24,047 nt of DNA from a virus: positions 1 to 24,047 of the IMG/VR virus record IMGVR_UViG_3300025770_001283; one strand, written 5' to 3'. Both the position numbers and the translations under genes were made by a program. Under the pieces are notes generated by a model that ran no database searches, was not told where the DNA came from, and worked only from the letters and a program-made list of their open reading frames with translations. Shown here in pieces: positions 1 through 24,047 of the stretch; position 1 is the first letter of the stretch, and the number at the start of each line of letters is the position of its first letter.

Positions 1-1442
1 GAAGAAGAAGAAGAAGAAGAAGAAGATTCTGAACTAAGTGAATACAATTCAGAAGAACTTGAAGATGTGGATGAACTTACTAAATACTCTTCAGAAGAGC
101 TTGAAGATGTGGATGAACTTGATGTGGATGAACTTGATGTGGATGAACTTGATGTGGATGAACTTGATGTGGATGAACTGGAAGAAGTTGACGAGCTAGA
201 ACTAGATGATGCATAAACTGGATGTTCACGAGACATTGCAATAATTACTGGATTAACAGCATCTCTAAAGATGTCACCTACTTCATTGTTGTAATTGTCT
301 ACATCAAATGTTGTTTCTATTGACAAAGATCCACTTGACCAGTTTGAGGTGACCAAGCTTTTAGAATTTAATAAGGAAAGAGAAGTTGTTTCAGGCTGTA
401 TGTCGCCATCATCTAAGTCAAACAAATATATTTGTTGATTTGATATAACTGCAATATTGAACGGGTCAAATACATATTGTGTTGAGTCAGGTTTTATTGG
501 TATGTCGGTTTTAGTATTACTCCATCCATTATCATATGTAAACTTTACGTTTTGAGCGCCAAGAGCAAATATGTGAGGAGTAATATCAGTATTGTAAGAT
601 AGACTTACATTTTTAAATCCACCAAGACTATATCCTGTTGGAGAAGTCAAACTGCTAATCTTAGTATAAATAGGATTAGATCCCAGTAAAGATTCACTAC
701 CTAAAGAATCTGATGTTACATAATAAATTTTCTGACCAGCGACATTAGAGATAAATGTAAATCCTGCTTCAGAAGAACGTGTTAATCCTCTAACATCGTA
801 ATCCACAAGATCGCCGACAGTAGAGCTAGTTAGCTCAATAAAACTGGAATTAGCCCATGAGTCAGAATTATAGTTATAAAAGTTAAAGTCAATTTTATCT
901 TCTGTTCTATTAGCTATAATAAAATTATCAATAGTGTTAGAGATTTTTATATCATCAAACGAATCCGCATCATATGTTTTAGTTCCTTTTAAGATTAGAT
1001 TCTCATCTGTTATTGCATACACCTTAAATGTGGAATCTTCATGAGTTATTAAATATGGTCTTTTATTCTCTGTTTTGTCAGAGATTAATCCTAGCCAATT
1101 AACGAAATAGTTTGTTGAATATTCAATTATCTCTTTAACTGTTTGATTTATTTTTATCAGACCTATAGTGGAATTGCTACTGTTTTTCTTAGAAAATACA
1201 ATTGTTATTTCGCTATTAACGATTAAGATATTCGAATAGCTTATCTCATCATCCGTTCTGTACAGCACATCGGTCCCAATTGATTCCCAACAAAATCCAT
1301 TCCAGAATTTATAAACAAGATCATAATGTCCATTTTTTTGCTCGACCCATGTAAGGTGAGGATATCCACGACTATCCAATTCCATAGAAAATGATTGTAC
1401 AGAATGCTTATTTGTTAAAATTTTAGTTTGTTTTAATATCAT
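1..1442 (-). CDS. Serine-rich phage surface/fibre-type protein, C-terminus beyond the window
   Basis: An open frame runs from an ATG at 1442 to the left edge without a stop, giving 480 residues of a longer protein. The first ~405 residues are beta-rich, with short repeated strands of the type HLTWVEQKNGHYDLVYKFWN that resemble sialidase or beta-propeller blades; I cannot assign a family. From about residue 410 the protein becomes almost pure Ser with some Thr (SSSSST units), broken by EEYLV and ELYSL, and it is still serine-rich at the edge. It starts 19 bases after the stop of the 1236-residue FG-GAP gene on the same strand, so both are probably on one transcript. Only a weak GGA precedes the start. 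The serine tail suggests a flexible linker leading to another domain outside the window. A role in host-surface binding is inferred from neighbours, not shown. Confidence 0.8.
   Translation of the reverse strand, partial: MILKQTKILTNKHSVQSFSMELDSRGYPHLTWVEQKNGHYDLVYKFWNGFCWESIGTDVLYRTDDEISYSNILIVNSEITIVFSKKNSSNSTIGLIKINQTVKEIIEYSTNYFVNWLGLISDKTENKRPYLITHEDSTFKVYAITDENLILKGTKTYDADSFDDIKISNTIDNFIIANRTEDKIDFNFYNYNSDSWANSSFIELTSSTVGDLVDYDVRGLTRSSEAGFTFISNVAGQKIYYVTSDSLGSESLLGSNPIYTKISSLTSPTGYSLGGFKNVSLSYNTDITPHIFALGAQNVKFTYDNGWSNTKTDIPIKPDSTQYVFDPFNIAVISNQQIYLFDLDDGDIQPETTSLSLLNSKSLVTSNWSSGSLSIETTFDVDNYNNEVGDIFRDAVNPVIIAMSREHPVYASSSSSSSTSSSSSTSSSSTSSSSTSSSSTSSSSTSSSSSEEYLVSSSTSSSSSELYSLSSESSSSSSSS
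64..180 (-). repeat. 15-bp tandem repeat encoding Ser-Ser-Ser-Ser-Thr
   Basis: The unit gatgtggatgaactt occurs five times head to tail at 106-180 (the last copy has one change at its final base) and once more at 64-78. Read on the minus strand it encodes SSSST. It forms part of the polyserine region of the partial gene. The near-perfect identity suggests recent slippage or unequal recombination. Confidence 0.9.
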
Positions 1443-1461
1443 TTTTTATTCCAGATACACC

Positions 1462-4400
1462 TCAATGTTCAAGCCTGTAAATATAAACAGATCCTGAACC
1501 TGCTCCATTATCATCATCCTCATCAGCTCCAACAATTGCATAATCTCCACTAATTGAAACAGACTCTCCAAAGCTATCATTAGCAGCGCCATCAGATGCA
1601 ATTATCTTAAATTCATTTCCCCAAGTGTTGCCTGAAGTTCTTTCATAAATATAAACAGCTCCTGCACTTTCACCATTATCATCATCCCTATTAGCTCCAA
1701 CTATTGCATAATTGTTGTCAATTGACACAGAATATCCAAAGTGATCACTAAGTTCTCCATCAGATGCGATTATTTTTAATTCATTTTCCCAAGTATTACC
1801 TGAAGTCCTTTCATAAATGTAAACAGATCCTGAAGTGCTTCCATTATCATCATCTAAATGAGCCCCAACAATTGCATAATCTCCACTAATTGATACAGAA
1901 TATCCAAATTGATCATTAGCAGCTCCATCAGATGCGGTTATTTTCAATTCATTTCCCCAAGTATTACCTGAAGTCCTTTCATAAAGATAGACAGATCCTG
2001 AACTTGAATCATCACCATGAGCCCCAACAATTGCATAATCTCCACTAATTGAAACAGAATCTCCAAAGCTATCATTAGCAGCTCCATCAGATGCGGTTAT
2101 CTTAAATTCATTTCCCCAAGTATTACCTGAGGTTCTTTCATAAAGATAAACAGCGCCTGAATCTGCTCCATTATCATCATCACCACGAGATCCAACAATT
2201 GCATAATCTCCACTAATTGAAACAGAATCTCCAAAATAGCCATAATCATCTCCATCAGATGCGATTATTTTCAATTCATTTCCCCAAGTATTACCTGAAG
2301 TTCTTTCATAAAGATAGACAGATCCTGAACTTACTCCATTATCTCCGTCAATAAAAGCTCCAACTATTGCATAATCTCCACTAATTGAAACAGAGTTTCC
2401 AAAAAAGTCAGATGCAGCGCCGTCAGATGCGGTTATTTTTAACTCATTTCCCCAAGTATTACTTGCCGTTCTTTCATAAATATAAACCGATCCTGAACCT
2501 GCTCCATTATCATCATCCTCATCAGCCCCAACAATTGCATAATCTCCACTAATTGAAACGGTTTTGCCAAATTGATCTGATGCAGCGCCATCAGATGCGA
2601 TTATCTTAAATTCATCAGCCATTAACATTGAACTACTTGAACTGCTACTTGAGGAAGTGCTGGAAGCACTTGAGTATCCTTCAGAGCTACTACTGGAAGA
2701 GCTTGAATATCCTTCAGAGCTACTACTGGAAGAGCTTGAATATCCTTCGGAGGAAGAACTAGAAGAGCTTGAATATCCTTCGGAGGAACTACTAGAAGAG
2801 CTTGAAGAACTAGAATACCCTTCGGAGGAAGAACTAGAAGAGCTTGAACTACTAGAATACCCTTCGGAGGAACTACTACTAGAAGAGCTTGAATATCCTT
2901 CTGAAGAACTACTAGAAGAATATCCTTCTGAAGAACTACTACTTGAAGAACTAGAATATCCTTCGGAGGAAGAACTAGAAGAGCTTGAACTACTAGAATA
3001 CCCTTCTGAGCTACTACTTGAAGAACTAGAATATCCTTCTGAAGAACTACTGGAAGAATATCCTTCTGAAGAACTACTGGAAGAGTAGCCTAGAGAAGAA
3101 CTACTTGAAGAACTAGAAGAATAGCCTAGAGAAGAACTTGAGCTATCTGAACTAAAAGAAGAAGAACTAGAGTCAGAAGTAGAACTGCTTTCTTCCATTA
3201 TACTTTCTTCTTCAATATTTAATTTTCTTATATCTACGATAGGTATAGATAGATCTACAACTGCAACACTTGAATTAGTTAGTCCAACATTGCTATTCCC
3301 ATCAGTGTCCGTCAAAGAGACTTTTATGAAGACCACATCGTTACTTGCAGTTAAAACAGAAGAAGGATTCCAAGTTATTTTTCTATATCCTGGCATTATA
3401 CCAAAACCTATATCTCCAATTACATTGCTTGACACAGATGAAAAAGTAATATTGTCAGTAGAATATGTCAATAAAACATTTGATTCACTAACCTCAAAGG
3501 CTCCTTTATAAAAATAGATTATGTCAATTAATCCACTTCCATCTTTTCTTTGTGAAGAAGTTACTTCAGTTATTGCAGGTTTATCGTGATCTAATGGGAA
3601 GAACAGTTTTCTTTGAAATACATTTGGGTTAGAATGAATGTCTGTAATTGTTACGCGAGCAGTAAGTATGTCTCCTGACAATAAGGTTGACCCACTATAA
3701 GTACAAGCTATCCCTGACGAATCAAAGTCAAAAGTATCTGACCTAGATGTTCCAGAGTTATCTGTGCTTTCCAGGTAGACTAAGTTGTTATTTATCCATA
3801 CTTGATAATATATGCTTTCTATTTGTTCTTCCCCAAATATTACATTAAACGATAACTTTATTTTGTCATCTCCACATTCTAAAGGCGCATTATTAAAGTC
3901 CGTGATTAATAATGTGTCAATCCCAATATTGTTTTTATATAGCTTTATTTTGTGAGGATAAGATTTAGGGGCTTTCGTCAAGATTTCTGTGTTTAAGTTT
4001 TCTACTACATATGGGGTAAATAGTATTCCATTAACTCCAGTATCGTCTGACAACTTTCCTAATGAGTCCATATGAATAATTCTAGGAGGATCTATAATAC
4101 TTTGAACGGACTGTGCATTAGAGTCAAACAAACTATCTATTTCATCTGCGAAACTAAATGTTTTATAGTTGGCAATTATTCCAAACAGTCTATTTTTTAC
4201 TATCTGTATGACAGAAGAATCAAATCGTTCAGCGTAAGTTATTGCGTTGTTTAATATCTTTTGTGGTTGTACGGATTGTTCTCCTCCATATCCTAAAATT
4301 CTTGATGGAGAATAATCAGAGGTAACTACAGGATGTTGAGATATAAAAAGAACAGCAACTTGATCAGCAATAATGGCTCTTTTTTGATCTTCACTTATTG

Positions 4401-5172
4401 TATTTTCATTTAGGTCATCTAAAGAAGAAAAAATACTTTTGTTATACAAAGTAAGAAACGAATCGCTAGCATGAGGACTAGACGTAAATATGTCGTGTTT
4501 ATTTGGAGTAACGTACTGAGCTTCTGCTGGAGCACTAAACGTCAACAGTTGCATATAAGAGTTTGACTCCTTATTTATATGAGTTGATGGAGACGACAAA
4601 TTTTTGTCAATAAAGAACTGACTAGTTATTTTGATTCTAAATACAAAGAGGCCAAACAAACCATAATTAGAAAATGCGTCTTGATTTTTACTAGGGACAG
4701 TCCATTGAAAATATCTTGCTGAATCATCTAATTCTAGATCGAACCCACTAAAAGTAGCTAGGTTATTCTCTTCTCCTGATATTAAATCTGTTACGGACAA
4801 TTGGATTGTGTTTTTTACATAAACGTAATCATCACCTAAGGAACCCTCAAGATGTCCTTTCTTATCAAACTTGATACTAATAGATTGATCATTAAAGCAA
4901 AAGGCGTTACTAATTGCAGTGGAGGTGGTGCTAATGTTTGAGGTTTCTTTAAATCCCCAAACAACTTGATTAAGTAAAATATTGCCTGCATTATTGTTTG
5001 CAACAAAATCGGAATTAATAATGTCAATTGACAAGGAAGTATTTCTAAAATTACCTCCATCATCTTGTATATATGGATACATTAAGTTGGCATATGTCGA
5101 ACCACTTTCTGTAAAATGCAGATCAGGATTATTTGTTGATCTTAAATACCCTACTCCATCTTTAATTGACAT
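1462..5172 (-). CDS. Large modular fibre/adhesin-like protein: N-terminal region, polyserine linker, seven FG-GAP repeats
   Basis: 1236 residues in three parts. Residues 1 to ~655 are beta-rich; the last ~120 of these (around [17 protein letters not shown] and [11 protein letters not shown]) look like an Ig/fibronectin-type fold seen in bacterial surface proteins. Residues ~657-850 are serine runs of 5-11 separated by 14 EGY or LGY spacers. Residues ~851-1236 hold seven FG-GAP repeats, each about 56 residues, with the pattern [22 protein letters not shown], then an acidic DDDNG loop that could bind Ca2+, then [15 protein letters not shown]. Seven repeats would make a closed integrin-alpha-like propeller. 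The start has AGAGG about 7 bases upstream (AGAGGAACAACAATG). There is no signal peptide, as expected for a virion protein. Host-receptor binding is inferred. The long ORF on the other strand across the serine region is a codon-repeat artefact. Confidence 0.9.
1465..2622 (-). repeat. Seven ~168-bp repeats encoding FG-GAP propeller blades
   Basis: The DNA itself is repetitive: segments such as attgcataatctccactaat and cattt(t)ccccaagt recur about every 168 bases. Six copies are close to full length, and one (around 1990-2140) is shorter in the acidic loop. The first and last blades share an almost identical [16 protein letters not shown] loop. Differences concentrate in the acidic loops and in the residues just before FG, while the strand-forming [13 protein letters not shown] core is kept. 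Confidence 0.9.
2626..3200 (-). repeat. Serine/EGY low-complexity linker region
   Basis: About 575 bases encode serine runs separated by EGY (12 times) or LGY (twice). Serine codons from both families (TCN and AGY) are interleaved, and blocks of 30-60 bases recur. This points to block duplication and selection for the protein sequence rather than single-codon slippage. Confidence 0.9.
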
Positions 5173-5257: not shown

Positions 5258-6376
5258 TTATGAGCTACTAGAACTGCTCAATGAACTACTAGTCATAGAA
5301 CTTGAGCTTGACGAGTCAATTGAGCTACTAGAGCTAGATGCGAATTCATTAAATGTTACAGTTCTTCCAACTTTTTCAACAACTATAATATCCCCATATT
5401 CTAATTCAAATGCAATGTGTGGTGAGTTAAACGTATCAGACTCTCCATTTGCATTAGAGAATTCCGAATATGAAGTAGTAATCGAATTAGTTAATTTGTT
5501 AATAACGTAAACAGTATTGTCAGACAGGTCTGTAGCCAGAATCCTATTATTATTGGCGTTAGAGTATGTCGCAGAGACTAGGTTGGAGAATGGGGCTATT
5601 GATGTCCAAACTAAATTATATGGATCAATGGTATATTCATATATAACTCCTGAAGAGTTTGTGACTAACAAAACGTTAGCATCTTCTGAATAATCTAAAA
5701 ATATTGGATTAGAGGTAGATATTGACGTTACAAGAGTGGACATACTCTCGTTAAGTTCTATTACTCTATTGTTTCCCGTATCGGCAACAAAATAATTGCC
5801 ATTTAGAGTCTGAATAGCAAAGGATGGACTACTTAATCCACTATATGAGTATATAACTGAGGACGAAATGGTTTCACTTACCCTAATTGAGTCAGAGTTC
5901 AATGAGAGTACTTCACCAGATTGATTAAATGAGATTGGTTCTCTGTTTCTTGAAGAGTCAATGAACTGAGATTTATTTATTCCACTATTGATGGAGACTA
6001 AATGACTAACATTAGATGTGCTAAATGACCTGTATTGAGGTAGAATTTTAATTCTTATGTCTGGAGTTTCTCCATATTTTAGGCTATTCTTTATATAGTC
6101 CCACCTTATTAGGTTCAAACTGCCCTTAGAAGAGCAAACAAGGTCTCTAAACCTGTTTTTATCTAATGAGTTGGCGGTAGAAAAGAGGACTTGTATGTCA
6201 GACCTCCACTCTTCACCATCACGCCCTCTAAATTCCACTAGAATGTCAAAATTAGACCATTTATCAGAATATGCAACGATTTCAATATCTACATATTTAG
6301 TGTTAATTTCTCCTATCTCTAAAGAGTAAGACAGATCTCCATTTATTGTCATAGATTGAGTGCTCCAATTTTCCAT
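5258..6376 (-). CDS. NHL-type beta-propeller protein with C-terminal polyserine tail
   Basis: 372 residues from the ATG that overlaps the stop of the upstream protease gene (TAATG). A TTG five codons earlier is possible but lacks a better ribosome site, and TAATG coupling favours the ATG. Residues ~1-125 are a beta-rich N-terminal domain. From ~180 to 345 there are propeller-like repeats, the clearest being PSFAIQTLNGNYFVADTGN followed by NRVIEL, a good match to the NHL repeat pattern. The protein ends in about 25 residues that are mostly serine (SSSSSIDSSSSSSMTSSS and so on) and stops directly after the run. NHL propellers bind proteins or carbohydrates; a tail or fibre component is the likely role, by context. 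The serine tail may be a linker that lost, or never had, a further domain. Confidence 0.8.
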   Translation of the reverse strand: MENWSTQSMTINGDLSYSLEIGEINTKYVDIEIVAYSDKWSNFDILVEFRGRDGEEWRSDIQVLFSTANSLDKNRFRDLVCSSKGSLNLIRWDYIKNSLKYGETPDIRIKILPQYRSFSTSNVSHLVSINSGINKSQFIDSSRNREPISFNQSGEVLSLNSDSIRVSETISSSVIYSYSGLSSPSFAIQTLNGNYFVADTGNNRVIELNESMSTLVTSISTSNPIFLDYSEDANVLLVTNSSGVIYEYTIDPYNLVWTSIAPFSNLVSATYSNANNNRILATDLSDNTVYVINKLTNSITTSYSEFSNANGESDTFNSPHIAFELEYGDIIVVEKVGRTVTFNEFASSSSSSIDSSSSSSMTSSSLSSSSSS

Positions 6377-7347
6377 TATAAAGTTTCCCAAGGTTTTAGT
6401 TTTAGAACTCCAAAGCCCAACTCATTATCCCAGCCATTGTTATTTGTGTCGTAAGCGTTATCATATAGCCATTGTCTAAACTCTTTAAGAACATCTTCTT
6501 TTTTAGGCATCGTATTATTTATTTTTTGCTTCTCTCTCCACAATAACGCTAATCCTGAAACGATTGGACATGATATACTTGTTCCTGTCATCTTGCCATA
6601 CTTATTGTTGGGCAATATACCATAATGGAAATTTAAGCTTGCAATAGCAATCTCTGGTTGCTCACAAACTGTTCCGCCTTTACCTGCGGTAGAATACCAC
6701 GCAGGCAAGTTATGCTCGTTAGCACTAGCAACTGATATACAGTTATTAAATGATGCAGGATAGGACATATATGGAGAACCTCGTAATCCTTCATTACCTG
6801 CTGCTGCAATAGGAATAATACCCAAAGAAACGGCTTCTTCTAAAGCGTCATATAGTAAAGCACTTTTATGAGGACTACCAAAACTCATAGAAATAACTCC
6901 GTAATTATTGCGACAAGCATATTGGATTGCCTTTACCACGTTTTTTTCAAATGCATGAAGATCGCCATCTCGTCCATCGCCATGAAGAACTTTTGCACTC
7001 AAACATGTTGATTTTGGGGCAATTCCATAATTGTCGGATATTATCTCTCCAACGATGAATGTTCCGTGATTAGAGTAATCGTATGAATCATCGCAATTTT
7101 CTATAAAACTCATTGGAAAGATTTTATTTATTATTTCTATGTGAGACTCGTCAACTCCTGTATCTAGAACGGCAACTTTCTCTCCTTCTCCCTTGCATAT
7201 CGTTTTGTCAAAGTTTCCATTTGTAACAAGCCAGTTGTTTTTGTCGTTTGATACGCTTGATTTAACAACACTATATTTGTTTAATCCAAATTTCGAAAAT
7301 TTGTATCTTAGGCAGGATATCCAATTATTTAGGTTTTTTATCTTCAT
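6376..7347 (-). CDS. Subtilisin-like (S8 family) serine protease
   Basis: 323 residues with the full subtilase catalytic set: Asp62 in VAVLDTGVD, His94 in NHGTFIVGEI, the oxyanion Asn185 in AAAGNEG, and Ser257 in GTSISCP. The catalytic core covers almost the whole chain (about 55-323). There is no signal peptide and little room for an inhibitory propeptide (about 50 residues before the core), so it is either cytoplasmic or carried in the virion. It overlaps the upstream lipoprotein gene by 23 bases and is coupled by TAATG to the NHL-type gene, so the three are probably made together. Possible roles are cleavage of structural proteins, self-processing of fibres, or attack on host surface proteins; the sequence does not decide between them. 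Confidence 0.93.
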   Translation of the reverse strand: MKIKNLNNWISCLRYKFSKFGLNKYSVVKSSVSNDKNNWLVTNGNFDKTICKGEGEKVAVLDTGVDESHIEIINKIFPMSFIENCDDSYDYSNHGTFIVGEIISDNYGIAPKSTCLSAKVLHGDGRDGDLHAFEKNVVKAIQYACRNNYGVISMSFGSPHKSALLYDALEEAVSLGIIPIAAAGNEGLRGSPYMSYPASFNNCISVASANEHNLPAWYSTAGKGGTVCEQPEIAIASLNFHYGILPNNKYGKMTGTSISCPIVSGLALLWREKQKINNTMPKKEDVLKEFRQWLYDNAYDTNNNGWDNELGFGVLKLKPWETL

Positions 7348-8620: not shown

Positions 8621-9422
8621 CATTAATGGTGTAAATACCATTACAAGTGATATAACTGGGGTACAGAATGTGAACTTCTCTTATCTAGGAGTAAAGCCTA
8701 CATCCATCCAACCAATTGACAGGATATGTGGAGTTTTTGTATCTGACATTGTTGTTGCAGATAGTGGTTTTGTTAGATGGTTAGATGTAGCTTGGGATGG
8801 AGATCAAGACAACTATAACCTTGGGTTATTCGTTAGATCTTCTAATGACCCACTATCTAATGAGAAATGGGTAGGTCCGTTTTACAATAAGACTTTTGAC
8901 ATAGGGACGCAAAAAGGCGAGAACCTTCAGTTTATGGTGGTAATGATTGCAGATGAATCTTATACTCCAAAACTAAATGAGATACAACTGCGATACGTTT
9001 CTTCTAGTTCTGCAACTAATTTTTATAGCAAAGCTTTTGATTTAACTTTTGCTCCTGAAACTATTTTGTTGACATACAATGCAGATTTAAATAACGACAC
9101 AGTTGTTAAGTTCTCTGTTTCAAGAAAAGATACAACTAACTCATTGGATTACGAGTCAATAACTCCCAATAAAATAGAGACATTATCTCAAACACAGGCT
9201 TCATCTAACAAGTTAAAATTGTTGATTGAATTGTCTGGAGAATTTACTGCTGACGTTTCTGTACACGAATTCTCTTTGACAATTGGTGGACGCAGTGTGG
9301 ATAGACTTAATAAAGTTGAAGTCGATAGCTCAAGCATGTCGATGTCTTCCGACTCGTCTTCAAGTAGTTCTAGCTCTATTGATAGTTCTAGCTCTTATTC
9401 AAGTAGTTCTAGCTCATCTTAG
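8607..9422 (+). CDS. Beta-rich phage structural-type protein with polyserine tail
   Basis: 271 residues from the ATG at 8607, which has GAGG six bases upstream. A TTG at 8589 is in frame but has no ribosome site. Residues ~1-235 are beta-rich, with regions such as GFVRWLDVAWDGDQDNYNLG and YTPKLNEIQLRYVS of the type found in fibre or baseplate-attached proteins; no family recognised. The last ~35 residues are mostly Ser with Met, Asp, Ile and Tyr, and the stop follows the serine run directly. The block tagttctagctc occurs three times in the DNA of the tail. The gene ends five bases before the stop of the convergent hydrolase gene. The tail matches those of three minus-strand proteins nearby. 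Confidence 0.8.
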   Translation: MATININGVNTITSDITGVQNVNFSYLGVKPTSIQPIDRICGVFVSDIVVADSGFVRWLDVAWDGDQDNYNLGLFVRSSNDPLSNEKWVGPFYNKTFDIGTQKGENLQFMVVMIADESYTPKLNEIQLRYVSSSSATNFYSKAFDLTFAPETILLTYNADLNNDTVVKFSVSRKDTTNSLDYESITPNKIETLSQTQASSNKLKLLIELSGEFTADVSVHEFSLTIGGRSVDRLNKVEVDSSSMSMSSDSSSSSSSSIDSSSSYSSSSSSS

Positions 9423-10104: not shown

Positions 10105-10776
10105 CTATTTTTGAACGCCCAAGAGATCAATATTTCCAGTTGCGTCTAGTCTATCTTGGTCAGAGAAAGCTATAGTAGCCTCTCCAACGCTTGAAGTCCT
10201 ATATCCAGTGACACTCTTGGACAATGATCTATAAGCGTTGATAGACCCTTCAGCAGTGGCAGCGTATGTCATAGAGGCATCACCTCTAATTCCGAAGTTT
10301 CCTCCTTCTGCAATTGCGTCTTGATTTGCACCAAGGAAGATAAATTCATAATTTACCTTTTCGTCGTTCTGACAATCTTGAATCATATTAAAAACGCCTT
10401 CTCTGTCATATTCTTTAGATGAATTTTCTCCACCATCAGTAATGAACACAAAAAGACACTTTGCAGGTTTTTCATCATCTGGCATCCCTTCAATATTACT
10501 TCTTACAGACTCCAAAGTCATTCCCATTCCGTCTAAGAGAGCTGTCATCCCTCGTGGATTCAATTCCAATGGTCCTACGTCTGGCAAATCAATCATATCA
10601 TATACTAATTCATATTGATCGTCAAACCTAGCTAATGTTAGTGTTGCCTTTCCATCAACATCACGTTGACCATTAATAAATTCATCGAATCCTTCTTTCA
10701 TAGCTGCTGCAATTGAAGTCATTGAACCTGATCTGTCCACTGCGATTGCTAAATGTGTGTAATCTTCGTTTGGCAT
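10105..10776 (-). CDS. von Willebrand factor A domain protein
   Basis: 223 residues made up almost wholly of one vWA domain. The metal-ion-dependent adhesion site is intact: DRSGSM (Asp14, Ser16, Ser18), Thr78 in NPRGMTALLDG, and Asp114 in FITDGGENSS. No signal peptide or membrane segment, so it is probably cytoplasmic or packaged. vWA proteins of this type bind a partner through the metal; several act with AAA+ ATPases, but no MoxR-like partner is in the window. AAGGAG precedes the start by seven bases. A -10/-35 pair at 10867-10894 and five palindromes beyond it lie upstream. It is first in a probable two-gene unit with the hydrolase. Confidence 0.9.
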   Translation of the reverse strand: MPNEDYTHLAIAVDRSGSMTSIAAAMKEGFDEFINGQRDVDGKATLTLARFDDQYELVYDMIDLPDVGPLELNPRGMTALLDGMGMTLESVRSNIEGMPDDEKPAKCLFVFITDGGENSSKEYDREGVFNMIQDCQNDEKVNYEFIFLGANQDAIAEGGNFGIRGDASMTYAATAEGSINAYRSLSKSVTGYRTSSVGEATIAFSDQDRLDATGNIDLLGVQK

Positions 10777-10866
10777 TTCATTTCTCCTTTTTAAATGCTT
10801 TGTTGTTTTCTTATAGGAAGGATTAAAAATTGTCTAAAACAACATTGCCTAGAAAATCACATTGCT

Positions 10867-10894
10867 ATTATACAAATCATTTTTTCAAAAACAA
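10867..10894 (-). promoter_or_regulatory. Probable sigma70-type promoter for the vWA/hydrolase unit
   Basis: On the minus strand TTGTTT (10894-10889) and a perfect TATAAT (10872-10867) are 16 bases apart, with transcription directed to the vWA start about 90 bases downstream. The -35 matches TTGACA only in part. The palindrome array begins about 30 bases upstream of the -35. Confidence 0.5.
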
Positions 10895-10924
10895 GTTCTC
10901 TTGCCAAAATAAAGGGAAAACACA

Positions 10925-11068
10925 GGTTTAGTAATTTTTACTAAAGTTCCGAGGTTTAGTAATTTTTACTAAAGTTCAACGCCAAAGGTTTAGTAATTTT
11001 TACTAAAGTGTATGAAGGTTTAGTAATTTTTACTAATGTTTTTTAATAGGTTTAGTAATTTTTACTAA
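10925..11068. repeat. Five copies of a 20-bp palindromic element
   Basis: GGTTTAGTAATTTTTACTAA occurs exactly five times, starting at 10925, 10953, 10987, 11017 and 11049 (28, 34, 30 and 32 bases apart, close to three helical turns). Four copies extend to AAGT or ATGT. Within it TTTAGTAA and TTACTAAA form an inverted repeat across three T's in copies 1-3. All copies have the same orientation, and the sequences between them are unrelated. This is the layout of a multi-site operator/activator array or of replication iterons. Confidence 0.9.
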
Positions 11069-11234
11069 TTTATGTTAAATAGACATGCCGTAAGTCTTTG
11101 ATTGTAAGGCGTTTATAAAATCGAAAAACCCCCTTATTATTATAATAGTATTTATACTATAAGAATTAGTATAGGTATATTATAAGTGTAGTGATTTTTA
11201 AGGATGATAAATTGGAACGTTTTTAGAGTAAAAT
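11069..11234. other. AT-rich gene-free stretch beside the palindrome array
   Basis: No credible reading frame. Most of 11110-11200 is A/T, with an inverted repeat ATAGTAT/ATACTAT at 11145-11160, a run of five C's at 11129-11133, and several TATA-like hexamers on both strands. With the adjacent iteron-like array this would suit a DNA-unwinding region of an origin, or simply a promoter region. It follows the lysozyme stop codon; I see no clear terminator for that gene. Confidence 0.4.
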
Positions 11235-12167
11235 TTACAGAATATTTGGTTGCTCTGGTATATTTTCGTGATTTTGAACATTTGGTTGCTCTTGTACATT
11301 TTCGTGATTTTGAATATTTCTCATCATTTCGATAAGACGATCTGCTCTAGTTCCAGTTTGTCTTGCCCAGTTAGAGTCTCTCATTTCGTGAGCTGCGGAA
11401 TCGAAATTAAAATTCATCAGTGCTTCTCGAAAATTTCTAAATGTGGACAACCTTCCAAGTCCCATATTAAAAGACATATCAGATACAATCGTTTTAACTT
11501 CCGTAGGTTGATCACTAAAATTCGGTAAGAAACTTTGAGCATCTCCTATTGCATTTTGGATATCTTGTCCATATAATTGATTAACTTGCTCATCTGTAAG
11601 CATCTCTTTACCGCTTCTAATTTTATTATAATCTAATCCAAAAGCTTCAATCTTTGATTTAGCATCGCGTCTATTCAAATTAAATCCAACACCAATTGTA
11701 GGAACCTTCCATCCCTTTATGGGATCTTTATAAACTTTTCTAATATCAATAGTCTCTCCACCAATAGTAACCATTCGAGTAGAACCAGAAACTTCGTGCA
11801 ATCTTATTAAGGTTTCAATTCCAGAAACATCTAACGCAGTAGGTAATCCATGTGGTGTTTCTCGTTCAGGTTGAGCCTGTTCTATTACTTGTTCAGGCTG
11901 TTCAGCTTGTTCAGGCATCTCTAGGACACTCCACTCAGGAGTTGGACTCATTCTAGCCAATTCTATAATCTTTTGATCATTTAAAGCACTCTCAACCTCT
12001 TCTTGAGATAATCCACTTTTCTGACAAGCGGTAAATATTGACGCACCTGAAAGAATCAATGCTACAGCTAATAAAGATTTTTTAAAACTATCACCAAAAC
12101 CTGCTTCCTTTAATAATGCATCGTTAATCTTAGAATCGTTGTACCAGTTATAATTTTTGTTTGTCAT
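11235..12167 (-). CDS. GH24 (T4-type) lysozyme with N-terminal membrane segment
   Basis: 310 residues. The catalytic domain (about 113-285) has Glu125 in LIRLHEVSGS, Asp148 in YKDPIKGW and Thr157 in VPTIGVGFNLN, matching the Glu/Asp/Thr triad of T4 lysozyme, and the late SDMSFNMGLGRL, NWARQTGTRADRL region typical of the family. It cleaves peptidoglycan between MurNAc and GlcNAc. Before it are a polar 30-residue leader with NWYNDS, a hydrophobic segment (about 31-47) ending FTAC (Cys48), and a Glu/Pro/Gln linker (83-103). Cys48 is the only cysteine, so it may be a lipobox Cys, or the segment may act as a signal-arrest-release anchor without thiol switching. The C-terminus carries a twice-repeated QNHEN(V/I).EQPN unit. 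The ribosome site is weak. It could be the endolysin or a virion lysozyme. Confidence 0.9.
   Translation of the reverse strand: MTNKNYNWYNDSKINDALLKEAGFGDSFKKSLLAVALILSGASIFTACQKSGLSQEEVESALNDQKIIELARMSPTPEWSVLEMPEQAEQPEQVIEQAQPERETPHGLPTALDVSGIETLIRLHEVSGSTRMVTIGGETIDIRKVYKDPIKGWKVPTIGVGFNLNRRDAKSKIEAFGLDYNKIRSGKEMLTDEQVNQLYGQDIQNAIGDAQSFLPNFSDQPTEVKTIVSDMSFNMGLGRLSTFRNFREALMNFNFDSAAHEMRDSNWARQTGTRADRLIEMMRNIQNHENVQEQPNVQNHENIPEQPNIL
11243..11314 (-). repeat. Two 36-bp tandem repeats at the lysozyme C-terminus
   Basis: 11243-11278 and 11279-11314 match at 33 of 36 bases and encode two 12-residue units of the form QNHEN(V/I).EQPN. They lie after the last conserved lysozyme helix, so they are an added tail rather than part of the fold. 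Confidence 0.85.
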
Positions 12168-12374
12168 ATTTTATGTCACTTAGTAAGAGTTGTTTGTTAA
12201 ATCATTCAATCCTGAAAGATTCAAATCCTCTTTTTTACATTCAGATTACGCAGTTTAATAAGAAAAAAGAATGAATATAAGCTAATCCTGAAAAAAGCTA
12301 TGGGATTCTTGGAAACTCAGGGTATAATACCAATCATAACCAAATCGTCAGTTAATTTACTATAGGAAGGAAAT
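12168..12374 (+). promoter_or_regulatory. Divergent intergenic region with a probable plus-strand promoter
   Basis: The 207 bases between the lysozyme start (minus) and the next plus-strand gene should hold promoters for both directions. On the plus strand TATAAT at 12323-12328 sits in a perfect palindrome GGTATAATACC (12321-12331), about 45 bases before the GTG start; no good -35 is visible, so an activator or phage sigma factor may be needed. AATCCTGAAA occurs twice (12208-12217, 12284-12293). I could not pick out a minus-strand promoter. Confidence 0.4.
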
Positions 12375-12839
12375 GTGCCTACCCCAGAATACAACAAACA
12401 AATAAATAACGATGAAAGCAAATGTTTTCATTGTAGAGAGATGGTGGTAAAGTTTTTACAGACTAAACCCACCATAAGGTCTATATCCTTCGTAGAGATG
12501 GAACTTGAATCAGGAGAAGTAGTAAGAACAGGAGATATGACCTTTTCTGTATTCTTAGATGAAATCGGGTTCGATAGAGAATCATATGTAAAATATGGAA
12601 AAGAATTCTTCTCCAGTTTTATGATAAATTTCTTTGGTGAGTTTCTCGTTAGAGAGAATATTAGTAATTTTGTAGATTTGTCTTCAACAGTTGACTCACA
12701 AGACTTCATACAGGCAATTTCGTCCCAAAAGCATAGAAAGTTTGGGATATCTGTACAAGGAAATGCTGTGACATTTACTTTTCACATCAGTTTGCTTCCG
12801 ACAATTTTAACTGAAGACTTAAAGTCTCTAGATTGGTAA
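12375..12839 (+). CDS. Protein of unknown function
   Basis: 154 residues from a GTG at 12375, with AGGAAGGA a few bases upstream. An ATG two bases earlier is out of frame and closes after ten codons. The sequence has a single CFHC pair near residue 17-20, then alternating hydrophobic and charged segments with helices and strands, and no membrane segment. No family recognised. It is the first gene of a plus-strand series leading to the ATPase and RNR genes, and the next gene begins six bases after its stop. Confidence 0.7.
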   Translation: MPTPEYNKQINNDESKCFHCREMVVKFLQTKPTIRSISFVEMELESGEVVRTGDMTFSVFLDEIGFDRESYVKYGKEFFSSFMINFFGEFLVRENISNFVDLSSTVDSQDFIQAISSQKHRKFGISVQGNAVTFTFHISLLPTILTEDLKSLDW

Positions 12840-19138: not shown

Positions 19139-19985
19139 GTTAATAAAATTAAATCCTCTCACAAAAGAGCAGTCATCCATACAAATTGGTATGGAGGTTA
19201 GATCATTTTGCTGTGTAGATGATGATATTTACTTCATACATCGTGAAGGCATCGGCAAAATACAAAATGGCGTTGTAGACCATAATTGGTACCAAGAGCT
19301 ATGTAGCGTTGATATTCCAGATCTATCCTCACTTAGTTCAATAACTTATTGTCCGTTTAATAACAATTTATATGTTGTCAGTGATGGTGGAAGTCAAATA
19401 GGTAAGGTTGACTTGGTCATGTTGGATTTCGAGTTCATGATCTCTAAGGGAAGTGTCAAGCAATTCAAAGACAAATTTTTGTCAGTTAATGATTCAGATA
19501 CTTACATTGTTTCTGATGGTAGAAAAATTGTTTGGAGCATTACGGATTGCCACAGATGCTTTCAGATGGTAGATTGCAAAGCTGTTCCATTAGTTGGTTG
19601 TGGTAAATCAGGATATTCTATGTCTAAGTTAGAACATGCAAGAATTTCATGTCCCACAGGAATCGCCATTATGAATGGAGTAATTTGTTTTTCAGACATG
19701 GGAAATAATTGTTTAAGAGGGGTTAGCAATAATAAATTGTTAACTGTAATTAGTGACTGTAAAAACGTTAAAGATGTTTTCTATCATAATGAAAAGATTT
19801 TCTTTTTAAGCGATAAAACTATCTACATGTTGTCGTCTGAAGGAGATTCAGGTCACTTATTTGAAGTATATAGGTCTAAAAACCTAATTAAATCATTTTT
19901 TCCGAAAGGTAATGATTGCATGTATCTACTATATAACAATTATGGCATACCGCTCCAAGAAAGAAAAACCGATCAGTCCACTTGA
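19128..19985 (+). CDS. NHL-repeat-like beta-propeller protein
   Basis: 285 residues from the ATG at 19128, inside the end of the preceding gene; a TTG at 19104 is in frame. Repeated short strand patterns (DDDIYFIHREGIGKI, NNLYVVSDGGSQIGKV, GVICFSDMGNNCLRGV, EKIFFLSDKTIYML) and HARISCPTGIAIMNG, followed by SDMGNN, match the NHL signature of P.GIA....YV.D.GNN.IR. A single propeller of about six short blades is likely. It is unusually cysteine-rich for a phage protein (10 or more Cys). NHL propellers bind proteins or nucleic acid; no active site is evident. It overlaps terL by 44 bases. Confidence 0.75.
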   Translation: MTCELIKLNPLTKEQSSIQIGMEVRSFCCVDDDIYFIHREGIGKIQNGVVDHNWYQELCSVDIPDLSSLSSITYCPFNNNLYVVSDGGSQIGKVDLVMLDFEFMISKGSVKQFKDKFLSVNDSDTYIVSDGRKIVWSITDCHRCFQMVDCKAVPLVGCGKSGYSMSKLEHARISCPTGIAIMNGVICFSDMGNNCLRGVSNNKLLTVISDCKNVKDVFYHNEKIFFLSDKTIYMLSSEGDSGHLFEVYRSKNLIKSFFPKGNDCMYLLYNNYGIPLQERKTDQST

Positions 19986-21777
19986 CGAAATAATATCTAA
20001 AATAAAGTCTGATAATCCCTCCATTAAAAGCAAGAAATCAGATAAAGATGAAGAAATTGTTGACATAATTACTTTTTGTAATGGAGAACAATACCTAAAC
20101 CTAGTTAAGAACGGCTTAACACTCTGGATGTCACAAAGAGTCATTTTAAAGTGTTTTTACAAAAATACTATTGGCAATGATGATCTTAAGCTTACTACAG
20201 AGGAATGGGAATGGTTGTATGATAATGAAGAAAATGAAGAGTTAGAAGGATTTGTCTATGAGAGGAATATCAAAGATGTAATTAAGAAGATGATGGACAT
20301 GGACAAGTATCACACAGATAAGTCTGCGGGTAATGACTTTAATGAGGGGAAAGATACATCCGATCAAAAAGCTGAATACTTTAGCATGTTGCATTTAGTA
20401 TTGGGTCGTAGAGGATCTAAGACTTTAATGGCATCTATAATCACAGTTTATGAAGCTTATAAACTTTTGGTTGTTAATGGTGGAGATATGCATGAGTACT
20501 ATAATCTTCCATTTGACGATGAAGTTGCCATTATTAATGTAGCGTTATCGCAGGCGCAGGCAGGTCGTTTATTTGGACAGATACAGGCTAGACTAAGAAA
20601 CTCCCCATTTTTTAAGAATAAGATTGCAAAATCCACTAACTCGGAGATTCGCCTATATACTGACTCCGATTTAAGAAAAAAAGAAGCAGGCGTTGACGTT
20701 GACGTTAATGGATCTGTAATTCTATTATGTGGTCATAGTAATCCTGACTCATTAGCTGGTTATAGTGCAATATTGATTTTATTTGACGAAATTGCATTCT
20801 ATGATGAATCTGGCAAGGTAACAGGTACATACTTCTTTAATAGACTTAAACCTTCTTTATCTAAATTTTATAAATACAATGCTGCGCGAATTGTTATGAT
20901 CTCTTCTCCTAATAATAGACAGGGGATATTTTATGATAAATTTGAGGAAGCTAAGAAAGATGACTCGATATTGTCCTTTCAGTTGCCCACTTGGTGTGCA
21001 AATGAAGACATTGATTTTGATAACAAGGAGATGACTACTGATAGAGAGAGCAATCCAGACATGTTTTCAATTGAGTATGGCGCACAATGGGCTACTGGTG
21101 GTGCTTATGGTAATTACTTTGAATCAGGATTAATAGAGAGATGTGTAAAATCAGAAGCTGGGCCTCACACTAAACCTCAACCAGGATTTAATTATTTTGC
21201 CCATGTTGATCCTGCAAATGGTGGACATAACTATTGTATGGTTCTTGTAGGATCTAAACGATATTCTAATAATAGAGGAGAGAAGAGGTGGCAAATTCAT
21301 CTAGCAGGAGTCTGGATATGGAAACCTGTTCCTGGGATTGGATTACAGTTCCACGAGATTGATAGAGACGTTTTAACGATTTGTCAAATTTTTAGACCTA
21401 TTTCTGTTACATATGATGATTTTCAATCGGTCCACAGTTTGCAATTCTTAAGAAGTCATGGAGTTCCTGCAAGAAAGATACAGTATAATAGAAACGTAAA
21501 ACAAAAAATATATATGAATTTAAAAATGTTAATGGAGTATCAACCATTTTCAGAACTATTCCTTTATGATGATGGTGCAAATGCTTCTTATTTAATTGCT
21601 GAGATGTATAATTTGAAGTTCAAAAGAATTACTAGAGGTATTTCTTTGTTGCCTGACAAAAATGCAGACGTTAAAACAGATGACGTAATAGACTGTTTGG
21701 CAGGAGCGTGTTCGTCAGCAAACAATGCAATTACACCATGTCTTCCTATGCCCACAACAGTAAGAATGAGATTTTAG
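19942..21777 (+). CDS. terL: Phage terminase, large subunit
   Basis: 611 residues; the motor that pumps DNA into the prohead and cuts the concatemer. ATPase domain: P-loop LGRRGSKT (154-161), Walker B ILILFDE (277-283, Asp282/Glu283), coupling motif ISSPNN (320-325). Nuclease domain (RNase H fold): Asp423 in FAHVDPANGG, Asp492/Asp493 in VTYDDFQ, and acidic residues around 580-584 in VKTDDVID. The P-loop reads GRRGSKT where GRRSGKT is more usual; a Ser before the Lys is also known in PBSX-type terminases, so it is probably active. The start is uncertain: ATG at 19912 is in frame and preceded by AAAGG, but MAYRSKKEK at 19942 looks like a more natural N-terminus. No small subunit is visible next to it. 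Confidence 0.95.
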   Translation: MAYRSKKEKPISPLDEIISKIKSDNPSIKSKKSDKDEEIVDIITFCNGEQYLNLVKNGLTLWMSQRVILKCFYKNTIGNDDLKLTTEEWEWLYDNEENEELEGFVYERNIKDVIKKMMDMDKYHTDKSAGNDFNEGKDTSDQKAEYFSMLHLVLGRRGSKTLMASIITVYEAYKLLVVNGGDMHEYYNLPFDDEVAIINVALSQAQAGRLFGQIQARLRNSPFFKNKIAKSTNSEIRLYTDSDLRKKEAGVDVDVNGSVILLCGHSNPDSLAGYSAILILFDEIAFYDESGKVTGTYFFNRLKPSLSKFYKYNAARIVMISSPNNRQGIFYDKFEEAKKDDSILSFQLPTWCANEDIDFDNKEMTTDRESNPDMFSIEYGAQWATGGAYGNYFESGLIERCVKSEAGPHTKPQPGFNYFAHVDPANGGHNYCMVLVGSKRYSNNRGEKRWQIHLAGVWIWKPVPGIGLQFHEIDRDVLTICQIFRPISVTYDDFQSVHSLQFLRSHGVPARKIQYNRNVKQKIYMNLKMLMEYQPFSELFLYDDGANASYLIAEMYNLKFKRITRGISLLPDKNADVKTDDVIDCLAGACSSANNAITPCLPMPTTVRMRF

Positions 21778-21848
21778 AGGATTTTTATTTTCTATATAGA
21801 AGAAATAAAAGAAAAACTAAAGAAGTTTTTCAGGAGAACAAAACTAAA

Positions 21849-22745
21849 ATGGGTGATTATAAATTCGTAATCTATGAAAAATTAGATGGAGATGCACATA
21901 CTGACCGTATGTTGCAAGAGGATCATGGAAATGTTCCTGAAGAAATTACAAATAAACAATTAGAGTCTCACCATGTTGGATATAAAGATACAATAATGGA
22001 AGATTTATTGGAAAAGAATAGAACTGGTTCTGCGGAAGTTGTTCTAGAGAAGAATTTGAACGATTCGAAAGACCAATTTGGATCACAGCATAGAAATCCC
22101 TCCGCTTATGAAGGCGATATAAGCAAATTAGAAGAGCAAAGAATTGCTAATAACAAAAAAAATGAAGAATATGAAGTTGCATCAGAAACTCCAAAAAGAA
22201 GTAGATGGTGGGAGTTAAAAACAAAAGATGGTCTTAAAATTGCATCTAAAAAAGAAGCTCAGTTCCATTATGATGACATTAATTGGGAAGAACTTGATAG
22301 ACAGCAAGACGATGAGTTCGCTTCAGGTGATGTAGACGACGATCTTATGAACGATCTTAGTAATGATTTTTCAGTTGACGATATTGGATTCGAAGTAGAT
22401 GAATTGGACAAAAAGATTCCTAGTGTATTGAAAGAGGTTTCTTTTGATGTTCCAGATGTTGGAGGAACGCCAACGGCAAAAGGAGAAATACAAATTTCTA
22501 ATTTAGATTTTTACGATTCTGCTAATGATCCTAGACTTGAAGAAGATTTAAAAGATGTTCTTGATGATATTTCATATCGAGAGAAAGTTGAACTCCCTTT
22601 TAATTTAAGTTCATTCGATTTTTCTAAATTTTCAGAAGGTGTTATAAGCTTTGCTATGGAAACTCAGGGAACTCAAGGGTTCGAAATAGACGATTTAACT
22701 GCGTCAAATAATTTTCCTGTTGTTGAAGCTTCAAAAAAAAAGTAG
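21849..22745 (+). CDS. Acidic protein of unknown function, frame-0 product before a slippery site
   Basis: 298 residues from the ATG at 21849 (AGGAG 12 bases upstream) to TAG at 22743-22745. The same frame is open further upstream into the end of terL, so a start near 21738 cannot be excluded. The chain is hydrophilic and mostly helical at first (EVVLEKNLNDSKDQFGS), has RSRWWELKTKDGLKIASKK near the middle, a strongly acidic stretch (ELDRQQDDEFASGDVDDDLM) and a C-terminal part with regular hydrophobic spacing. It ends EASKKK at A9-G-TAG. The open frame continues as a further 64 codons in the -1 frame (separate entry). Its place after terL suggests head assembly, but it does not resemble a portal protein. 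Confidence 0.8.
   Translation: MGDYKFVIYEKLDGDAHTDRMLQEDHGNVPEEITNKQLESHHVGYKDTIMEDLLEKNRTGSAEVVLEKNLNDSKDQFGSQHRNPSAYEGDISKLEEQRIANNKKNEEYEVASETPKRSRWWELKTKDGLKIASKKEAQFHYDDINWEELDRQQDDEFASGDVDDDLMNDLSNDFSVDDIGFEVDELDKKIPSVLKEVSFDVPDVGGTPTAKGEIQISNLDFYDSANDPRLEEDLKDVLDDISYREKVELPFNLSSFDFSKFSEGVISFAMETQGTQGFEIDDLTASNNFPVVEASKKK
22736..22742 (+). promoter_or_regulatory. A AAA AAG slippery heptamer, probable -1 frameshift site
   Basis: In frame 0 the codons read TCA AAA AAA AAG TAG. A AAA AAG is the heptamer used for -1 frameshifting in E. coli dnaX. A slip back by one base next reads GTA GAA GAA and continues for 64 codons. The zero-frame stop lies immediately after the heptamer. I see no strong stem-loop directly downstream and no SD-like stimulator upstream. 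A one-base length error in the run of nine A's would give the same picture. Confidence 0.65.
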
Positions 22746-22936
22746 AAGAATCAAAGGTTAAGAAGGCTTTCAACGCATTTAAAGACGCATTTGATGGGGA
22801 AGATATACCAGCCACTCATGCAGAGCTACACAGTTTACTTCAATCAGCATTTTTTACAGAAAAAGAACGACAACTTTTCATTAGACAAGTAAAGTCTTAT
22901 GCAAGAGAAATGAATGTTGGGTTAGACTTGCTATAA
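22742..22936 (+). CDS. -1 frame extension of the preceding gene (fusion part)
   Basis: 64 codons and TAA, read after a -1 slip at the A-run. The peptide, starting VEESKVKKAFNAFKDAFDG and continuing with ELHSLLQSAFFTEKERQLF, is a credible pair or trio of amphipathic helices with a normal composition. The frame has no start codon except an ATG close to its end, and is closed upstream by TGA at 22724-22726, so it is unlikely to be translated alone. The fused product would have 362 residues. No family recognised. Confidence 0.65.
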   Translation, partial: VEESKVKKAFNAFKDAFDGEDIPATHAELHSLLQSAFFTEKERQLFIRQVKSYAREMNVGLDLL

Positions 22937-22981: not shown

Positions 22982-23827
22982 ATGAAGGTTAATATTTATG
23001 GGCTTACTGAAGCCACTATCTCTTTTAATTCGATGGGTATGATGCTAAGAGGAAAATACAGTAGTATTCCTGAGGAATATGAAGCAGGCAGCGTGGCTTA
23101 TAATGTTGTTATTGATAATGAACATCAAGCTAACGAATTAAGGCAGATTTCTGACCTTAAATTGATTCGCGTAGAAGTTTTGGAAGAAGAAGAGAAAGAA
23201 GCAATCAATTTAAAGGACATTGTGTCATCTAGTCTTGTTGAAGAAACTGTTGAAGAAACTGTTGAGGTCATAACCACAACAGAACCTGCGTTAGAAGAGA
23301 TAGAGGACGACGTTAAGGTGTCGGAACTGCCTCCATCAGCAATAGATATTCAAATACCTTTGACTGATCAATACGAAAACTCATCTGATGCAGTCGTTAT
23401 GACATCAAGTGGACCAAGACGCGGAAAAATGACTCATAAGATGAATGGTGAGATTGACGACACGGATTCTCGTTGTGCAGCGTCATTGCAGGCTGCTGAA
23501 GATCTAAAGACAGAAGAAGAAAGACTTGACGATGTTATTGACGAGACTCTTTTAGATCCTTCTGAGCAAATGGGATCAAAGGCAGTATTAGGTGCTGGTA
23601 GCGGTAAAACGACAACTACAGCAATGAAGAATAACGCCTTTGGAGATAAGCCAGAACCTAACTTTCTTGATTTAGAAGTGGAAGACGACAAAAAGACAGA
23701 CAAGAGCAAAGAGGTGGAATCACCATTTATTGATTTAACACCTGATACGAATAGTACTGATGAGGCGTTTCTTGATCTTGATAAGGAAGAAGAGAATGAA
23801 TTAGGAGATTCCTTTATTGAATATTAA
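22982..23827 (+). CDS. Acidic, largely disordered protein of unknown function
   Basis: 281 residues from the ATG at 22982, with GTGGAG seven bases upstream (a TTG at 22967 is in frame but overlaps the ribosome site). Residues 1-~65 form a small compact domain (KVNIYGLTEATISFNSMGMM) of alternating strands with LRQISDLKLIRVEVL. The rest is rich in Glu, Asp, Ser and Thr, with repeats such as VEETVEETVEV and segments FLDLEVEDD, FIDLTPD and FLDLDKEEE that look like repeated short linear motifs (F-(L/I)-D-L). The N-terminal pattern resembles small phage proteins that precede head genes, but I cannot name a family. A GAGSGKTT stretch is not a real P-loop. The F(L/I)DL motifs may bind a partner. Confidence 0.75.
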   Translation: MKVNIYGLTEATISFNSMGMMLRGKYSSIPEEYEAGSVAYNVVIDNEHQANELRQISDLKLIRVEVLEEEEKEAINLKDIVSSSLVEETVEETVEVITTTEPALEEIEDDVKVSELPPSAIDIQIPLTDQYENSSDAVVMTSSGPRRGKMTHKMNGEIDDTDSRCAASLQAAEDLKTEEERLDDVIDETLLDPSEQMGSKAVLGAGSGKTTTTAMKNNAFGDKPEPNFLDLEVEDDKKTDKSKEVESPFIDLTPDTNSTDEAFLDLDKEEENELGDSFIEY

Positions 23828-23897: not shown

Positions 23898-24047
23898 ATG
23901 AGTAAACAAAAGAAAACAGCTTATAGAACTACCATGCCTGAGATTATTGCTCCAGGTACTGGTCTTAGTGGAACGACTCAAAAATCAGTCATGCCATTTA
24001 ATAATGTGCATACCATTTGGGATGTTTTAACTGGTAAGCCATACTTA
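23898..24047 (+). CDS. Start of a gene cut by the right edge
   Basis: The first 50 residues of an open frame from ATG at 23898 to the edge, beginning MSKQKKTAYRTTMPEIIAPG and including TIWDVLTGKPYL. A GGAGG lies upstream. Too little is visible to assign a family. Its place after terL and two accessory genes makes the portal or another head protein a reasonable guess, on gene order only. Confidence 0.65.
   Translation, partial: MSKQKKTAYRTTMPEIIAPGTGLSGTTQKSVMPFNNVHTIWDVLTGKPYL

Follow-up and report, generated by a model that had tools for sequence, protein, structure and literature searches.

A terL-adjacent gene in a clade of uncultured large phages probably makes two products by programmed recoding, with transcriptional slippage the likely mechanism

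Runs of nine A's or T's make bacterial RNA polymerase slip efficiently in vivo, a property that dnaX of Thermus thermophilus uses: an A9 tract is the whole signal, and the products share their N-terminus (PMC5009743). The dnaX gene of the Chlorobi has 10 A's and two ORFs and has been read as a further case of transcriptional slippage (PMC3711429). In spa13 and mxiE of Shigella, part of the protein made carries a C-terminal extension as a result of transcriptional slippage. In dnaX of E. coli and in elements of the IS1 and IS3 families, A_AAA_AAG or A_AAA_AAA lies in frame and a -1 shift takes place; IS elements widely use both heptamers, and at times A_AAA_AAC (PMC4066793). Among phages, the tail assembly chaperone gene of lambda gives a short product, gpG, and a C-terminally extended one, gpGT.

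The locus described here resembles each of these systems in a gene that is unrelated to the dnaX genes of Thermus and the Chlorobi and to the Shigella proteins and their system; no relation in sequence or fold to lambda gpG/gpGT was found. It lies in a 24-kb record of an uncultured virus (24,047 nucleotides, the whole of which we analysed and call the window). Based on a comparison of the window with its relatives, we think it probable that a gene next to terL in a clade of uncultured large phages undergoes programmed recoding, likely through transcriptional slippage, and that it has two products.

In the window, terL, the gene of the terminase large subunit (19942..21777, plus strand; PHROG match, E 7e-29), is directly followed by an ORF for a 298-aa protein (21849..22745, plus strand), whose sequence was read directly, aligned with that of its relatives and modelled with AlphaFold2. 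Direct reading shows that frame 0 ends TCA AAA AAA AAG TAG. The nine A's (22733..22741) are followed by G at 22742 and by the TAG stop (22743..22745), all on the plus strand. Two heptamers are in frame within this stretch, A_AAA_AAA at 22733..22739 (codons TCA AAA AAA) and A_AAA_AAG at 22736..22742, the latter being the candidate put forward in an earlier note on this DNA. The -1 frame continues for 64 codons (22742-22933) to a TAA (22934-22936). As the earlier note had said, it is closed upstream by a TGA (22724..22726), at a distance from A_AAA_AAG of 9 nt rather than the 16 bases given there.

The extension, the whole of 22742..22936 with its stop, is reachable by a change of frame only, and its sole ATG, GTG or TTG is its codon 56. 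Its codon usage resembles that of the window's genes, unlike that of wrong frames: the score of 0.166 per codon falls at the 77th percentile of the coding distribution and is matched by 1.2% of wrong-frame windows of 64 codons. In codon usage, the coding signal passes from one frame to the other at the A run. Both the sequence and the codon usage therefore confirm what had been noticed earlier, a stop right after TCA AAA AAA AAG followed by a coding-like -1 frame of 64 codons.

Relatives were found by alignment of terL, at first as contigs with terL 75% identical to that of the window, including the 476-kb L011, and further ones at 53-60% and then 48-54% identity. Thirteen lineages, the window included, extend past the site; they come from separate metagenomes, and their terL is 100 to about 48% identical. 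The contigs L011 and L013 were counted as one lineage because they are identical over 13.8 kb. When the window's frame-0 protein or its extension was used as a direct query, no relatives were retrieved; the N-terminal domain as query returned known contigs only, and none were found among species genomes. Six related records, possibly fragments, held no RNA polymerase beta subunit, and there were no tRNA genes in the loci examined. An intein-like insert splits terL itself in two relatives; in L040 (5947-8643) it lies at the Walker A region, in L047 (5917-8829) further downstream.

In all 13 lineages the frame-0 ORF after terL ends NNA AAA AAA AAN TAG and a -1 extension continues beyond it, and in none of them is there a single fused frame. 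A comparison of homologues had been suggested in the earlier note, and its outcome is uniform: the A run and the frame break are kept by all 12 relatives that reach the site. This conservation rules out the alternative that the earlier note had raised, a length error of assembly or sequencing or a real inactivating indel in one phage. Homopolymer runs are generally error-prone, and the only near-identical second contig (L002, with 6,936 bases 100% identical to the window) ends at window position 21847, 2 nt before the gene, and is therefore unable to check the window's own A run. However, the same break recurs in 12 relatives from other metagenomes, L011 and L013, assembled separately, are in exact agreement there, and the probability left to such an error is negligible. 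We give as little weight to phase variation, in which replication slippage would toggle the extension between phage genomes; long A runs are mutable, but all 13 lineages share one phase, with the stop in frame, and the fused phase is absent among them.

Aligned at the stop, the 13 lineages read A9-N-TAGA. The nine A's are invariant, with a run of A10 in two lineages, and base 10 is free (G in six, T in four, C in two and A in one). On the terL tree base 10 changed about seven times and the A9 was never broken. The extension keeps its length (64-74 aa) and its pattern at 19-52% identity to that of the window, and it varies most at third codon positions in the -1 frame. The string A9NTAG occurs exactly 13 times in the 13 loci (369 kb of strand-bases), each time at the site, and once in the 476-kb relative. 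Runs of A9 are themselves rare, with five in the 476-kb record and one, the site itself, in a 94-kb record. The naive chance of finding NNA AAA AAA in all 13 lineages, given Lys-Lys, is about 10^-11, a figure that shared ancestry makes too small, although the lineages diverged deeply, as the low identity of their extensions shows.

The TAG is also invariant (13 of 13), although its A, the third position of an NTA codon (Val, Leu or Ile) in the -1 frame, is mostly silent there. Termination in frame 0 therefore appears to be selected, and it follows that both products would matter. Comparison across the lineages shows that selection acts, to judge from the sequences, on the A9, on the stop and on the extension alike. 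Programmed recoding that would yield a short product and one extended at its C-terminus is thus well supported, and the earlier proposal of a 298-residue protein accompanied by an extended form gains support from the conservation among relatives.

Other runs of A9 sit within coding frames of these phages, where they are tolerated, which weighs against the case for slippage on the tract. In four relatives a second A9 lies inside the frame-0 gene, past the N-terminal region (L034 at 8278, L045 at 8212, L046 at 6302 and L047 at 9322). Slippage at this second run would in L046 and L047 yield an N-terminal-only product, like the short genes of L049 and L050. In L044 an in-frame TAG (8751-8753) interrupts the frame-0 gene midway, and the protein is conserved beyond it. 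This prompted us to consider recoding of TAG as the event at the conserved site, and we rejected it because the conserved protein continues in the -1 frame, not in frame 0.

The extension could be a gene in its own right, on which ribosomes re-initiate after the TAG, and the short overlap is of the kind seen in coupled genes. However, no start codon is conserved in it: the first ATG, GTG or TTG falls anywhere from codon 5 to codon 58, and two lineages have none at all. Re-initiation would moreover leave the fixed A9 unexplained, and we rate it as highly improbable.

Transcriptional slippage is the recoding mechanism that we favour, and the pattern of conservation makes it fairly likely. RNA polymerase would slip on the A9, and an extra A would enter a share of the mRNAs (A10). 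On these, ordinary translation would run into the -1 frame and add a domain of 64-74 residues, predicted to be of three helices, whereas translation of the unslipped A9 mRNA would end at the TAG and give the short protein. An mRNA with two extra A's would be read into the +1 frame and end within 1-6 codons; in all 13 lineages a stop closes the +1 frame after six codons at most. A kept homopolymer of about nine or more with a free flanking base, as expected for transcriptional slippage at an A tract, is found in 13 of 13. The arrangement differs from that of Thermus dnaX in the product made without a shift, which is the long one there and the short one here. For the polymerase of E. coli, insertions are reported to be about three times as frequent as deletions; it is also reported to slip more on T runs than on A runs, which counts against polymerase slippage here (PMC6260861). 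A further point against it is that only A8 and A9 discriminate it from slippage of the ribosome, and the Lys codon of the -1 frame could partly explain these two bases.

Programmed -1 ribosomal frameshifting, in which two tRNA-Lys would slip back by one base on A_AAA_AAA (or on A_AAA_AAG where present) with no strong stimulator, is the main rival explanation, possible but less likely. As in E. coli dnaX and the IS1 and IS3 families, a suitable heptamer is in frame: all 13 lineages have A_AAA_AAA, and six of them have A_AAA_AAG. In contrast to those systems, the last base is free here, there are nine A's rather than six or seven, and no stimulator was found. E. coli dnaX-type signals combine a conserved A_AAA_AAG, as a rule, with an upstream Shine-Dalgarno-like element and a downstream stem-loop. 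At this site G, the most efficient last base, is not kept, and no Shine-Dalgarno-like element is present within 25 nt upstream of the tract in any lineage. Downstream folding shows no excess (mean z -0.23 to 0.23, from simple folding without pseudoknots), which bears out the earlier remark that no clear stem-loop is visible there; some known frameshifts at heptamers of the IS type do without such a structure. Nine A's are fixed although seven would suffice for a ribosomal shift. Compared with a dnaX-type signal, slippage on the A9, whether by the polymerase or at A_AAA_AAA by the ribosome, is therefore the better fit to the free base 10 and the lack of a detectable stimulator. Of the programmed -1 frameshift at A_AAA_AAG that was proposed in the earlier note, the programmed break stands, and the dnaX heptamer as its signal, with G in only 6 of 13 lineages, is not supported. 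Sliding of the ribosome on poly-A, as distinct from a classic -1 shift, is very unlikely: in the published experiments the yield with A9 or A10 was small and sliding became robust only with A11 (PMC4363877), and the longest run found here is A10.

The more distant relatives L048, L049 and L050 (terL 39-42% identical) have neither the tract nor the extension, and a profile search of these three records found no extension domain. In L049 and L050 the protein of the frameshift gene is present as an N-terminal version only, of 118-131 aa. In view of these three relatives, the trait is confined to one clade of the terL tree. In LMM01, the Microcoleus phage, LR745208 and Tunturi_5, all with distant terL, there is no recognisable homologue after terL. 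Downstream of the protease gene, L049 encodes the head domain of a poly-A polymerase / tRNA nucleotidyltransferase (10221-12656).

The N-terminal half of the short product is mostly disordered and carries repeated E-K-x-L-E-x-x-R motifs. Its sole confidently modelled part in AlphaFold2 is a predicted beta-beta-alpha-beta domain at about residues 190-272, followed by a disordered C-terminal tail ending KKK. The extension is predicted to form three helices (pLDDT 86). Neither product has a significant match in Pfam, PHROG, PDB or BFVD; the beta-beta-alpha-beta domain has no structural match, and the fold of the extension has none among solved or viral structures.

The next gene downstream (22982..23827, plus strand) encodes an acidic 281-aa protein with no assigned function, and its place in the order is kept. 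It is followed by a gene of which the window holds only the start (23898..24047, plus strand) and whose L011 homologue contains a protease domain of the trypsin-like kind. The order is thus terL, the frameshift gene, the acidic protein and the trypsin-like domain protein. From this order we would guess that the frameshift gene encodes an accessory protein of head assembly or packaging, a fraction of which has an extra interaction domain. A tail assembly chaperone of the gpG/gpGT kind was considered and rejected, the gene being located directly after terL and not between the major tail protein and the tape measure.

At the other end of the window, the minus strand encodes large proteins with long serine-rich repeats (SSSSSSEGY) at 1-5172 and 5258-6391, one of which has repeated ASDGAA... 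units. These proteins look like surface or tail fibres. A subtilase (Peptidase_S8, E 1e-35) is encoded at 6376-7347, also on the minus strand, and is flanked by structural-looking genes.

The recoding is of a familiar type, and the gene family that would undergo it is new. In a limited literature search for transcriptional slippage in phages, we found only the CPt10 methyltransferase, for which slippage was suggested and is not conserved (PMC2853527). With its free flanking base and no visible stimulator, the site is a clean natural test of slippage by RNA polymerase against slippage by the ribosome. What it contributes to the knowledge of phages of up to at least 476 kb is a strongly conserved recoding site in an unannotated gene family, together with an extension domain which, lacking a start codon, escapes ordinary gene callers. 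Should the A9 act at transcription, a double-stranded DNA phage would provide an unusual example of programmed transcriptional slippage. It is quite possible, though somewhat less likely than not, that the whole large-phage clade sets the ratio of two forms of an undescribed terminase-adjacent head or packaging protein by polymerase slippage on a bare A9.
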